NCBI RefSeq assembly: GCF_006438825.1
Contig: NZ_RCZP01000039.1
Coordinates: forward strand, 211-50,586
DNA: 50,376 bases
Direction: 5' to 3'
Source: Muricoccus nepalensis
GTDB taxonomy: Bacteria > Pseudomonadota > Alphaproteobacteria > Acetobacterales > Acetobacteraceae
The notes below the pieces were generated by a model. The model was not told the DNA's origin. It saw nothing but the letters and a program-made list of their open reading frames with translations, and searched no databases. Shown piece by piece: positions 14,324-18,640 of this stretch; within the stretch, counting starts at the first letter, position 1, and every line of letters starts with the position of its first letter. Position numbers and translations under genes: made by a program.

Positions 14324-14905
14324 ATGGCCGAGAAGACCCTTGCTGATGCCTTTCACGAGACCCTCAAGGACGTTTACTACGCCGAGAAGCAGTCGGTACG
14401 GGGACTGAAGAAGTCCGCCAAGGCCGCGCGCTCTCCCGAGTTGAAGGACGCTTTTACAAAGCATGCCGAGGAGAGTGCCGTTCAGGTCGAGCGCTTGGTC
14501 CGCGTGTTCGAGATCATCGGCAAGCCGCCTCGCGCAAAGACCTGCGAGGCAATGCAGGGCCTGATTGCAGAGATGGAGAAGGACCTGGAGGATTTCGGTG
14601 GCACTGAGGCGGCGGACGACGTGCTGATCGGCTGTGCGCAGGCCATTGAGCACTACGAGATCGCCCGCTACGGCCTGCTCAAGACCTGGGCGCGCAAGCT
14701 TGGCCATGAGGATGCAGAGGAGCTTCTGGAGGAGACCCTGGACGAGGAGAAGCGCACGGACGCCCTGCTCAGCGAGATAGCCGAGGGCCTCGATGCACCT
14801 GACGAGGGTAGCGAGGGTGAAGAGGTGGAGGAGGTGCAGAAGGCGCCCCGGCGCGCTGCCGCCAAGCCGCCAGCATCCAAGTCGCGGGCAACGGCGAGGG
14901 CCTGA
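14324..14905 (+). CDS. DUF892/YciF-like ferritin-fold stress protein
   Basis: This 193-residue cytoplasmic protein has a four-helix ferritin-like core (about 1-155). It starts MAEKTLADAFHETLKDVYYA and carries the family hallmark DVYYAEKQSVRGLKK. Carboxylates and a His lie along the helices (KHAEESAVQVERLVRVFE and AIEHYEIARYGLLKTWA). The C-terminal about 40 residues are an acidic stretch, then an Ala/Lys/Pro-rich basic tail. YciF-type proteins are induced by general, osmotic or oxidative stress in many bacteria, and a di-iron role has been proposed. The ATG at 14324 has AGGAAAG upstream. The gene ends 92 bp before an IS3 element. Confidence 0.88.
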   Translation: MAEKTLADAFHETLKDVYYAEKQSVRGLKKSAKAARSPELKDAFTKHAEESAVQVERLVRVFEIIGKPPRAKTCEAMQGLIAEMEKDLEDFGGTEAADDVLIGCAQAIEHYEIARYGLLKTWARKLGHEDAEELLEETLDEEKRTDALLSEIAEGLDAPDEGSEGEEVEEVQKAPRRAAAKPPASKSRATARA

Positions 14906-15070: not shown

Positions 15071-15337
15071 ATGAAGCAGAAACGGTACACGGACGAACAG
15101 ATCGCCTTTGCCCTGAGGCAGGCGGAGAGCGGCACGGCAGTAGCCGAGATCTGCCGCAAGCTCGGGATCTCGGAGCCGACGTTCTACCGGTGGAAGAAGC
15201 AGTTCGCCGGGATGGGCACGGTGGAGATCCGGCGGCTGAAGCAGCTTGAGGAGGAGAACGCCAAGCTCAAGCGACTGGTCGCCGACCTTAGCCTCGACAA
15301 GACGATGCTGCAGGAGGTGCTGCGAAAAAAATGGTGA
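15071..15337 (+). CDS. IS3-family transposase OrfA
   Basis: This 88-residue protein is the DNA-binding half of an IS3 transposase. It starts MKQKRYTDEQIAFALRQAES. The helix-turn-helix is at about 20-45 (AVAEICRKLGISEPTFYRWK), followed by a leucine-zipper-like segment (IRRLKQLEEENAKLKRLVAD) and the conserved DKTMLQEVLRKK end. It runs into the A7 slippery run at 15325-15331, where ribosomes can shift to the orfB frame to make the fusion transposase. It looks intact. Confidence 0.92.
   Translation: MKQKRYTDEQIAFALRQAESGTAVAEICRKLGISEPTFYRWKKQFAGMGTVEIRRLKQLEEENAKLKRLVADLSLDKTMLQEVLRKKW
15325..15331 (+). promoter_or_regulatory. A7 slippery site for -1 frameshifting (orfA to orfB)
   Basis: Seven A residues sit at the end of orfA in the phase A-AAA-AAA relative to the orfA codons, followed by TGG TGA. 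A -1 slip there joins orfA directly to the orfB frame (AAA AAA ATG GTG). This is the classical position and heptamer for programmed frameshifting in IS3 elements. Confidence 0.8.
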
Positions 15338-16173
15338 GGCCCGCGCTGCGCCGCGAGGTGGTGGCTGTGCTGCTTGGCAGCTACCGGATCAGCGAGCGTC
15401 GGGCCTGCTCGGCGACGGGGTTCCATCGATCTGCGCAGCGCTACCGGTCCCGGCGTGACCCGCAGGTCGAACTGCGCATGCGTCTGCGCGATCTGGCTGC
15501 CGTGAGGGTCCGGTACGGCTACCGTCGCCTGCATGTGCTGCTGCGGCGCGAGGGGTAGCCGGTGAACCATAAGCGCGTCCACCGGCTCTACGCCGAGGAA
15601 GGGCTGTCGATCCGCACCACGCTGCCCCGCCGCAAGCGGGCCTGGCGCTACCGGCAAGGGCGGCCGGGCGCGACGGTGCCGAACGAGATCTGGGCGATGG
15701 ACTTCATGTCGGACCAGCTGTTCGACGGGCGCCCGATCCGGATCCTGACGGTGGTGGACATCCATACGCGAGAGGGGCTCTCAGCGCATCCGAGAGCCAA
15801 CTTCAGGGCAGCGCAGGTGGTCGAGGTTCTGGATCAGCTCGTGCGGCTCCGGGGCAAGCCGAAGAGCCTGAGGGTTGATAATGGGCCGGAGTTCGCCGGT
15901 CGCCTGCTCGACCACTGGGCCTACCTGAACGGGGTCGAGATCGACTTCTCGCGCCCCGGTAAACCCACAGACAACGCGTTTATCGAGGCGTTCAACGCCC
16001 GCCTCCGGGCCGAGTGCCTGAACGCCTCGTGGTTCCTGTCCCTGGCCGATGCCCGGGCCCGCATCGAGGAATGGAGGTGCCACTATAACCAGGAGAGACC
16101 CCACTCGGCGCTCGGGAACTTGACCCCGAACGCCTTCGCTAACCAAGCTCAACCAGCCCGAGAACTTGCATAG
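15331..16173 (+). pseudogene. IS3-family transposase OrfB with in-frame amber stop
   Basis: The orfB frame begins MVRPALRREVVAVLLGSYRI and contains the helical VRYGYRRLHVLLRREG. It then meets TAG at 15556-15558 and continues in the same frame with PVNHKRVHRLYAEEGLSIR. In relatives this spot is G-W-P-V-N, so a single TGG to TAG change explains the stop. The downstream integrase core is intact, with the DDE triad in WAMDFMSDQ, RVDNGPEF and NAFIEAFNARLR. The 612-bp part from 15562 is long and clean, so the lesion is recent. Confidence 0.9.
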
Positions 16174-16350
16174 AGCCCGGACCAGAGTTGGGGCGCAGAC
16201 CAAGGCCATGCTCCACTAAAAATCGGCCTGGGCCACCTCGTGGGGGCTGGTCACTGACGCCAACCGACCTTGGTGCATGGATCAGATCTGAGTCCAAAGT
16301 AGGGTAGGATAGGGCCAGAGCGCCCCACTGATCGATAGGGGACACCGCCC

Positions 16351-17316
16351 TTGCCCTTCAAGGTGAACAAGGACCGGCGCCACCGGATCCCGCGGCAGCG
16401 GCATCGGGTCACGAACTGGCCCGCGTATGAGGCGGGCCTTCGTGCTCGTGGCAGCCTGACGGTGTGGTTTACTGAGGAGGCCATGGAGGGGTGGCGGGCG
16501 GCGCCCCGGACCAACCGCGGCGGGCAGCGGTCCTATTCGGACTTGGCGATCGCCACTGCGCTGACCTTGCGTGCCGTGTTCCATCTAGCGCTGCGCCAGA
16601 CGGCGGGCCTGATCGCTTCGGTCCTGCGGCTGCTTGGCCTGGACCTTCCCGTGCCCGACCACACAACCTTGAGCCGCCGTGCGGAGACGCTCGAGGTGCC
16701 GCGTGCACGTGGCGGGCAAGCGCCCGTGCACCTGCTGGTGGACAGCACGGGATTGAGGCTCTGCGGGCCTGGCGAGTGGCTCACCGAGAAGCACGGGACA
16801 CGACGACGCTGGTCGTGGCGCAAACTGCACTTTGCCACCGACGCCGACACGGGGCGCATCGTCGCCTCGGTACTGACGGGCCACGATGCCGATGATGGCG
16901 GGCAAGTTGGTCTGCTGCTCGAGAGCGTGGAGGGATCCGTCGCGTCCTTCACCGCTGATGGGGCTTACGACCGTGACGACGTCTATGCCGAAGTCACGGC
17001 CTGTCACCCAGAGGCGGAGGTCATCGTGCCACCGCGGTCCAGCGCCGTGCCAAGCGCGTCAGCTGAGACTGATCCAACAGCGCGTGATCAACACCTGCAG
17101 ACCATTGCCGAGCGCGGCCGCATGGGCTGGCAGAGAGCGTCTGGCTACAACTGGCGTGCCCTGGTCGAGGCTGACGTGTCGCGCTGGAAACGCGTCATTG
17201 GGGATGGCCTACGCTCGCAAATGGACGGACGGCAAGCAACCGAGATGGTCCTCGCCGCCGAGGTGCTGAACCGCATGTTGGACCTGGGTCGCCCGGAGTA
17301 CGTGCGCACCACCTGA
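16351..17316 (+). CDS. IS5-family transposase (intact, copy 2)
   Basis: A 321-residue DDE transposase starting with TTG at 16351 (LPFKVNKDRRHRIPRQRHRV). It is clearly related to copy 1 at 1124-2089 but differs at many positions, so the two are separate IS species or old divergent copies rather than a recent duplication. Catalytic candidates are the Asp of LVDSTGLRLCG, the Asp of TADGAYDRD and the Glu of LVEADVSRWKR. There are no internal stops. It stands at the right edge of the IS-rich region, immediately before the GC-rich core genes. Terminal repeats could not be assigned with confidence. Confidence 0.9.
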   Translation: MPFKVNKDRRHRIPRQRHRVTNWPAYEAGLRARGSLTVWFTEEAMEGWRAAPRTNRGGQRSYSDLAIATALTLRAVFHLALRQTAGLIASVLRLLGLDLPVPDHTTLSRRAETLEVPRARGGQAPVHLLVDSTGLRLCGPGEWLTEKHGTRRRWSWRKLHFATDADTGRIVASVLTGHDADDGGQVGLLLESVEGSVASFTADGAYDRDDVYAEVTACHPEAEVIVPPRSSAVPSASAETDPTARDQHLQTIAERGRMGWQRASGYNWRALVEADVSRWKRVIGDGLRSQMDGRQATEMVLAAEVLNRMLDLGRPEYVRTT

Positions 17317-17339: not shown

Positions 17340-17525
17340 GTGTCCAACGCTCCGATCGATGCAACAAAGCCGCTGCGCGGGCGGGCGCGGGCGCTGGCGG
17401 CGATCCTGGCGCGGGCGGGGGCGCGGCCGCTCGCGCTCAAGGTCACGGCCGACGGGCAGCCCGGCCATCCCCTCTACATCGCCAGCGACACCGAGCCCCG
17501 TCTCTGGGAGCCGCCCTCAGCCTGA
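17340..17525 (+). CDS. Small hypothetical protein (61 aa)
   Basis: A 61-residue frame starting with GTG at 17340 (MSNAPIDATKPLRGRARALA) preceded by GGGAGA, ending TEPRLWEPPSA. The middle (ALAAILARAGARPLALKV) is helical, then VTADGQPGHPLYIASDTEP looks like strand and turn. I recognise no family. It begins only 23 bp after the IS5 transposase stop and its 3' end overlaps the convergent ROK-type gene by 9 bp. IS insertion may have removed its native promoter. Confidence 0.45.
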   Translation: MSNAPIDATKPLRGRARALAAILARAGARPLALKVTADGQPGHPLYIASDTEPRLWEPPSA

Positions 17526-18578
17526 CCTGCGGTTGGTGAAGCGCGCGTTGCCGAGCCCCGTGCCGATCGTCAGCACGCCCCAGCGCTCCACGTCCGTCAT
17601 GTTCGGGATCTCGCTCAGCCCCTGCAGCACGGCGTCGTTGTGCATGATGACGACGGTGGGGTGGCCGCCGATCTCCGGGATGGCCTCGGCGATCGCGCTC
17701 GGCAGGTGGAAGCGGCTGCTCTCCCAGTTGCCCGGAAGGTTCTGGCCGCCGCGGTCGATCGAGCCGTCCTCGCGGATGATGCCGGGGCAGCCGATGCCGA
17801 TGAAGGGCGCGAGGGAGCGGTGCTTGCCCTCGGCGAGGTCGATCATCCCGCGCAGCATGGCGACGATCCGCGCCACCGCCTCCTCGCGGGTCGGTTCGTC
17901 GTCGCGGTGGCGCCACAGTTCCAGTCCCACGACCTTGGCGGCGCCGAGGTCCGGCGCCTTCTTGAGGTTGAGGTCCACGAGCCCCGCGCGGATGTTGGTG
18001 CCGCCGATGTCCACCGCCAGCAGGCTGTCATGGCCGGAGAAGACCCAGCTCGGCGCGAGCTGCGCGGCGCCGATCAGCGCGGCCTCATCGGGCTCGTGGG
18101 TGATCGGCACCAGATCGACGCCGAGGCCCTCGGCCTTCAGCAGCAGCGAGGCGCGGGCGATGGCGAGCTTGCCGATCCGGCTGCCGCTCAGCCCGCCGCC
18201 GACGACGATGCGCTGCGTGTCCTTCCAGCCCTTGTGGCGCAGGAAGCGGCGGGTGACGGTCGCGAATTCCTGGGCGAACTCCTCGAGCACCCCATGGATG
18301 AGCGCCGCCGCCTCCGGCCGCTCGTCGGCCAGCAGCTTCTCGAGGCGCCGGTTGGAGACCTCCTCGGTCTCCGTGTCGCCCAGCGGGTCCTCGTCGCCGA
18401 GCTTGTGCAGCCGCTCCCGCCAGTCGTCGAGAATGGCGCGGAAGGCGCGCTTGCTCGCGCGGTCGCCGACGAAGCCGTCCTTGTCGCGGAGCTCCGCGTT
18501 GTAGGCGTCGAGGATGACGTGGGGCAGTTGAGACGACGCGTGGCCCGTCGTGGGCGGCGCGATGGCCTGGTCGGGCAT
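17517..18578 (-). CDS. ROK-family sugar-kinase-like protein, circularly permuted order
   Basis: This is a 353-residue cytoplasmic protein of the ASKHA/ROK kinase fold. The blocks occur in unusual order. Residues 1-180 hold what is normally the C-terminal half: RIVVGGGLSGSRIG at 123-136 and HEPDEAALIGAAQLAP at 161-176. Residues 185-353 hold what is normally the N-terminal half: SLLAVDIGGTNIRAGLVD (phosphate-1 motif, Asp190), GIGCPGIIREDGSIDRGG, NLPGNWESSRF, HNDAVLQG with candidate catalytic Asp315, and LTIGTGLGNARFTNR (phosphate-2) ending at the stop. The zinc-binding CxCGxxGC motif of many ROK kinases is absent. It probably phosphorylates a sugar or is a derived sensor; the substrate is unknown. 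It is the last gene of a minus-strand run from the enoyl-CoA hydratase. Confidence 0.85.
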   Translation of the reverse strand: MPDQAIAPPTTGHASSQLPHVILDAYNAELRDKDGFVGDRASKRAFRAILDDWRERLHKLGDEDPLGDTETEEVSNRRLEKLLADERPEAAALIHGVLEEFAQEFATVTRRFLRHKGWKDTQRIVVGGGLSGSRIGKLAIARASLLLKAEGLGVDLVPITHEPDEAALIGAAQLAPSWVFSGHDSLLAVDIGGTNIRAGLVDLNLKKAPDLGAAKVVGLELWRHRDDEPTREEAVARIVAMLRGMIDLAEGKHRSLAPFIGIGCPGIIREDGSIDRGGQNLPGNWESSRFHLPSAIAEAIPEIGGHPTVVIMHNDAVLQGLSEIPNMTDVERWGVLTIGTGLGNARFTNRRSG

Positions 18579-18640
18579 GCGGCGGCTCCCCTTCTACGGG
18601 GAAGGAACGCCGGCGCCGCGCGGTGGTTCAGCGCCGCGCC

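Follow-up and report, generated by a model that had tools for sequence, protein, structure and literature searches.

How can a protein carry the signature motifs of the ROK family, well known for its kinases and repressors, in an order that differs from that of ordinary ROK proteins? The question is raised by a gene in a 50,376-nucleotide stretch of the Muricoccus nepalensis genome (assembly GCF_006438825.1, contig NZ_RCZP01000039.1, positions 211 to 50,586; hereafter the window). The 353-residue open reading frame, P0001, occupies 17517-18578 on the minus strand; an earlier reading of the letters alone (the sequence-only reading) gave no strand, and the plus-strand frame of the same stretch stops at its third codon. 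That reading proposed that a ROK-like chain had been cut near the middle of the usual order and rejoined, and the motifs it listed lie exactly at the residues it gave (Table 1). GGG, which we take to be the adenosine-side motif, and EAALIGAA indeed precede VDIGGTN, the N314-D315-A316 segment, presumably the catalytic ND segment, and GTGLG. Both the sequence comparisons and the predicted fold support the circular permutation, and P0001 belongs to a conserved branch of the ROK fold in which the chain is circularly permuted and which occurs in many proteobacteria, some of which carry a putative general-stress-type promoter before the gene.

Against the Pfam profile PF00480, native P0001 gives two separate stretches, the better of which joins residues 187-349 to profile positions 2-141 (41.2 bits versus a cut-off of 22.9). 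With the halves swapped back, one stretch runs from profile position 2 to 292 of 294; the total score barely moves (41.2 to 42.5 bits). Taken singly, the C-terminal half covers positions 2-141 and the N-terminal half positions 179-292, the latter at 16.1 bits and under the cut-off. Profile-profile comparison by hhalign of 44 permuted members with 38 ordinary ROKs yielded two hits in the native order, 182-354 to 6-155 and 76-177 to 206-292 (scores 114 and 46), and a single collinear alignment of 279 columns after rearrangement (score 147). Over 37 cut points the score peaked at 180-181, reaching 143.1 versus 110.2 for the native order. The same two-hit pattern arose in a control in which 25 ordinary ROKs, artificially permuted after GTGxG, were compared with 13 other ordinary ROKs (188 before, 135 plus 52 after). 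The 38 comparison ROKs are what a motif filter kept, namely 25 of 31 Pfam-ROK loci, 6 of 7 loci resembling polyphosphate glucokinase (PPGK), of which L156 was excluded by hand, and 7 of 8 weak matches; within this set the ordinary order of DIGG, then GTGxG, then the last GG holds for all 38. Narrow hidden Markov models of our own, built from 25 zinc-type ROKs or from six PPGK-like proteins, proved too weak as a permutation test: the ROK model matched 20 of the 44 members in their native order, and once the chains had been rearranged it bridged the two halves in just a handful of cases. The permutation was therefore judged by the broader Pfam and profile-profile comparisons. When hhalign was run against the seven PPGK-like ROKs alone, only the N-terminal lobe was recovered. 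Seven PPGK-like proteins (L153-L159), which are ordinary in build, match PF00480 only at positions 2-141 to 2-144, so that a half-length match is in itself no proof of permutation.

The predicted structure points the same way. The full-length AlphaFold2 model of P0001 is confident (predicted local distance difference test 90.9, predicted template modelling score 0.90), and on this model Foldseek and VIA, both sequential methods, align the second half with ROK N-terminal lobes; VIA places residues 184-350 on 3vgk 2-142 and on 3r8e 0-145. When the N-terminal half (19-176) was modelled alone, at lower confidence than the full-length model, VIA placed it on 3vgk 141-312 and 3r8e 144-300 with moderate scores, and Foldseek found nothing for it at E ≤ 0.001. 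Every one of the top eight VIA rows for this half is a ROK protein or a ROK-type sugar kinase, covered in its C-terminal part except in an ill-fitting 3vov row (root-mean-square deviation 10.0). In both 3vgk and 3r8e the two halves of P0001, matched separately, map to adjacent parts of the chain and cover it almost completely. The models predict a two-lobe ROK fold for P0001, and the alignments put the cut at about ROK residue 141-145, just after GTGxG. Each half finds its complementary half in a known ROK structure, and the claim that the N-terminal part corresponds to the ROK C-terminal lobe holds by sequence as well as by fold, with the moderate fold scores just given.

The permuted form is widespread. 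A tblastn genome scan returned at least 512 relatives, and in all 80 kept for comparison the match starts at query residue 1-13 and ends at 349-353, nearly full length. Among the relatives listed, the best match with a name is Roseomonas aerilata DSM 19363 (93%). Among plasmids, 206 records match P0001, mostly from Rhizobium and Sinorhizobium, and in 204 the match spans 80% of the protein or more; full-length homologues occur in 22 of 398 genomes of the phylum and in 15 of 60 relatives, and matches at E ≤ 1e-20 in 12 of 289 genomes of the same class and 2 of 274 of another. Besides its single permuted copy, the genome of M. nepalensis has one ordinary ROK, which matches PF00480 over positions 2-292 (E 6.6e-73). 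Two other genomes of the same genus (G614, at C62, and G623, at C162) each hold a second, diverged copy with 57-58% identity to the window protein. Homologues with the same order were found throughout: GGG - DIGG - HND - GTGLGNA in 101 of 101 relatives, or 100 by a strict pattern, with L004 reading DIGGTS where DIGG[TS]N was specified. The shared order is expected because these loci were chosen by a bit score above 200 to the permuted query (they form 43 clusters below 86% identity, with many close kin); their weight lies in the existence of full-length permuted relatives. Beyond the full-length matches, the search of the phylum gave only weak ones (E ≥ 4.6e-6), seven of which (L103-L108, L110) were inspected and have the ordinary order. 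No fusion intermediate turned up among the relatives, in a search that was not aimed at such intermediates. Bradyrhizobium members (L014, L021, L022 and others) bear variable tails rich in Lys, Asp, Gly and Asn after TNR, in many cases of about 20-35 residues.

Which residues have been kept bears on function. Identical in 44 of 44 aligned members are G127-129, D190, G192-193, N314-D315 and G339-A345, as are W222, H224, Q279, N280, L281, P282, G283, W285 and H313 and, near the new N-terminus, H13, L18, F36, G38 and D39; position 194 is T in 29 and S in 15. The ratio of nonsynonymous to synonymous substitution rates (dN/dS) is 0.10-0.21 between P0001 and four relatives, which shows purifying selection. 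ROK proteins typically carry an ExGH sugar and zinc motif, and many, though not all, a CxCGxxGCxE zinc motif. The zinc motif is missing, as had been noticed at the outset: C264 is the sole cysteine of P0001, and C.CG occurs in none of the 44 members. Nor is ExGH conserved, E.GH being found anywhere in 2 of 44 and only L18 being invariant within positions 16-20. This pattern suggests that the phosphotransfer site still works and that the sugar site has been rebuilt, with H13 possibly replacing part of the lost ExGH.

Table 1. Features of the permuted gene and its upstream region (window coordinates).
Feature	Coordinates	Strand	Basis
Circularly permuted ROK-like protein P0001, 353 residues	17517..18578	-	sequence, relatives, Pfam, AlphaFold2 model
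Residues 1-183, equivalent of the ROK C-terminal lobe, now first	18030..18578	-	
Residues 184-353, equivalent of the ROK N-terminal lobe through GTGLG, now last	17520..18029	-	
H13, near the new N-terminus, identical in 44 of 44 members	18540..18542	-	alignment
GGG, residues 127-129	18192..18200	-	motif and alignment
EAALIGAA, residues 165-172, final block of ordinary ROKs	18063..18086	-	motif
Residues 173-184, short linker from old C-terminus to old N-terminus; P176 identical in 44 of 44	18027..18062	-	
VDIGGTN, residues 189-195, phosphate motif that opens ordinary ROKs	17994..18014	-	motif and alignment
N314-D315-A316, ND segment	17631..17639	-	motif and alignment
GTGLGNA, residues 339-345; chain ends 8 residues on, at the new cut	17544..17564	-	motif and alignment
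Candidate EcfG-like promoter GAAC-N16-CGTT, preceded by T	18606..18629	-	relaxed patterns only

A separate lead concerns how the gene may be regulated. The EcfG promoter motif of R. etli is given as GGAAC-N16-CGTT in the part of PMC3892343 consulted, and the strict motif was sought with a spacing of 15-18. In the first test, over 250 bp upstream, it occurred at 6 of 101 loci versus 12 of 7082 control windows. In the second, which covered the 150 bp before the gene at 51 loci (43 cluster representatives, seven plasmid loci and the window), it occurred at 12 of 51 versus 14 of 6326 control windows (shuffle mean 0.11), namely at 6 of 43 representatives and 6 of 7 plasmid loci but not in the window. 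The relaxed form AAC-N15-18-CGTT was found at 30 of 51 loci versus 96 of 6326 control windows (1.5%; shuffle mean 1.2), comprising 23 of 43 representatives, 6 of 7 plasmid loci and the window, and two further relaxed forms at 21 and 26 of 51 versus 49 and 111 of 6326. The relaxed patterns are post hoc, as the upstream DNA of the window, of the plasmid loci and of roughly half the remaining loci had been viewed before they were written. Because the loci were viewed before the second test and the relaxed patterns came later, the first test is the clean one. The site in the window is one mismatch from GGAAC-N16-CGTT and starts 51 bp before the start codon. The genome also has NepR, and the two open reading frames beside it, read by eye, appear to be sigma factors. 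No relaxed EcfG-like site was found within 250 bp upstream of a nearby DUF892 gene or at the NepR locus, nor on the gene strand at the otsBA locus. In the open-access literature, nothing was found joining RpoE2 with the ROK family, or EcfG or RpoE2 with glucokinase; the available part of PMC11387232 mentions only a different ROK gene. The permuted gene is a candidate member of the alphaproteobacterial general stress response.

The gene's neighbours may hint at the substrate. A divergent otsB adjoins the gene in three of seven annotated plasmid regions (R. etli CFN42, R. leguminosarum OyaliB and Shinella); the S. meliloti, Bradyrhizobium and Phyllobacterium regions have no otsB beside it, the CB782 region has a 'haloacid dehalogenase' in its place, and an eighth region carried no annotation. 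Two Rhizobium plasmids, p42c and p4, have otsB on one side of the gene and repABC on the other (L112 4071-10793, L121 5047-12033). M. nepalensis itself carries trehalose-phosphatase and Glyco_transf_20 genes. According to the part of PMC8092242 consulted, EcfG controls otsA and otsB in B. diazoefficiens, and glucose 6-phosphate is the substrate that OtsA joins to UDP-glucose. Given the otsB neighbours and this link between EcfG and trehalose, a stress-induced hexokinase that feeds or salvages trehalose is the leading guess.

Downstream of the gene in the window stand an HTH_Tnp_1/rve transposase pair (15071-16173), which we take to be IS3-like, and a DDE transposase (16351-17316). DNA similarity to relatives ends near 17367, about 150 bp past the stop codon, and the gene is intact. 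Farther on lies the DUF892 gene (14324-14905), presumably ferritin-like and stress-linked.

Could the unusual order have arisen without a true permutation? The transposase genes directly downstream (15071-17316) and the end of DNA similarity near 17367 might suggest that pieces of genes were joined by mistake, in assembly or by an insertion sequence. However, DNA similarity is unbroken through the whole gene and its upstream region in L002-L004, and the same full-length architecture recurs in many genomes, including those 204 plasmid records and 22 of 398 phylum genomes. With this recurrence and the low dN/dS, both an assembly error and decay are excluded, in agreement with the view that all motifs are intact, and an artefactual origin is hardly credible. 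Alternatively, an unrelated N-terminal domain might precede a truncated ROK N-terminal lobe, with GGG and EAALIGAA arising by chance. The N-terminal half is indeed the weaker one, in its sub-threshold Pfam score, its less confident model and its lack of a Foldseek match. Its weak profile matches nevertheless lie at positions 179-292 in the right order, the hhalign gain peaks at 180-181, and the ROK proteins and ROK-type sugar kinases that make up its top eight VIA rows align, 3vov apart, in their C-terminal parts, all of which makes a chance resemblance very improbable.

The main rival accepts the permutation and holds that the protein is no longer a kinase, having become a ligand-binding or sensory ROK derivative whose cleft serves to sense a sugar or sugar phosphate under stress. 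The unconserved ExGH, the absent zinc motif and the Lys-rich Bradyrhizobium tails fit such a role, as does the lack of any neighbour shared outside close kin: across the 38 loci that were compared, none of the neighbours has homologues at more than six others, versus 37 for the permuted gene itself. However, the invariance of D190, G192-193, N314-D315, G339-A345, Q279-G283 and W285 goes beyond what a pure sensor would need, and a Pfam search at E ≤ 1 brought up no domain that binds DNA, though there was an RNA-binding match below threshold. The sequence-only reading had also entertained a domain-swapped or sensory protein, a guess for which no support was found; although ExGH is not conserved, the catalytic and sugar-loop residues are, which favours a kinase, and we regard a sensor as unlikely. 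A natural, stable ROK permutant that works as a kinase and phosphorylates a sugar in EcfG-linked stress is, taken as one explanation, the probable one.

For this stress-linked kinase the following course can be proposed, in which we infer the kinase activity, the roles of D315, H13 and D39, the substrate, the stress expression and the trehalose link. The ancestor would have been an ordinary ROK, perhaps from a branch near the PPGK-like proteins. Its old termini would have been joined through a short linker at about residues 173-184, and a new break made directly behind GTGxG, where the phosphate-2 strand gives way to the ExGH/zinc segment, with both lobes refolding to the usual two-lobe cleft. 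ATP, or possibly polyphosphate, would be held between DIGGT, GTGLG and GGG, while D315 may act as the base on a sugar hydroxyl gripped by the QNLPGNW loop, and the new N-terminal segment, with the invariant H13 and D39, may take the place of the ExGH/zinc portion that the sugar site has lost. As EcfG-type promoter motifs precede the gene in a number of alphaproteobacteria, its most likely role would be to make a sugar phosphate when the general stress response is on; for the product, a hexose 6-phosphate that would feed or salvage trehalose is the best guess. A bolder version remains tentative and is rather doubtful to us: that a single ancient permutation brought the new termini to the rim of the ROK sugar site, that this site was rebuilt around H13 and D39, and that the resulting kinase, induced by stress, either acts on a new substrate (a sugar or sugar phosphate related to trehalose) or draws on a new phosphate donor.

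The lobe swap is hidden by current annotation, where the permuted branch appears mostly as 'ROK family protein' and in places as 'glucokinase' or 'hypothetical protein'. In the open-access literature on permuted ROK proteins, sugar kinases and actin-like ATPases, judged by titles and the first lines of abstracts, no description of a permuted ROK kinase was found; PMC2213659 and PMC1079889, in the parts consulted, treat other permutations or general classification. A conserved natural permutant means that the ROK cleft tolerates re-opening at the sugar site, and the permuted branch offers a direct test of enzyme evolution through permutation.

Among known systems, nearest kin may be PPGK-like ROKs. 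The polyphosphate glucokinase/glucomannokinase model NF045942 is the best NCBIfam match of P0001 and matches 39 of 44 members, and 1woq, of the same branch, is the only PDB match of P0001 by phmmer at E ≤ 0.1; PPGK-like proteins of the same bacterial family have NDAxxQG and LTxGTGxGxAxF in common with P0001. However, P0001 scores 24.3 bits against the NF045942 cut-off of 250, the PPGK-like relatives have the ordinary motif order, and other NCBIfam models match nearly as often (BglK 36 of 44, ROK_glcA_fam 35 of 44 with the lowest E of 2.4e-9). An unrooted tree built from the N-lobes of 82 sequences gives the permuted clade a support of 0.99 and its union with seven PPGK-like ROKs 0.72. The PDB matches of the family profile, namely human N-acetylmannosamine kinase, S. 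aureus NanK/glucokinase and beta-glucoside kinase, speak against this kinship, of which the permutation claim is in any case independent. The PPGK-like ROKs without a zinc motif (L153-L159 and L106) come from genomes of the same family and one other, L156 being incomplete in the fetched stretch. The N-acetylmannosamine kinase domain of human GNE (2yhw) has the ordinary order, unlike P0001. With ordinary ROKs such as the Streptomyces griseus glucokinase (3vgk), P0001 shares both lobes, the DIGGT, ND, GTGxG, GGG and GAA blocks and a PF00480 score above the cut-off; it differs in that its lobes are swapped, its chain ends just past GTGLG, it has no zinc motif and ExGH is not conserved. Since the permuted family descends from ROK but departs from the linear order DIGGT - ND - GTGxG - GGG - GAA at 101 of 101 loci, it is best classed as a variant of the ROK family rather than as an ordinary member.
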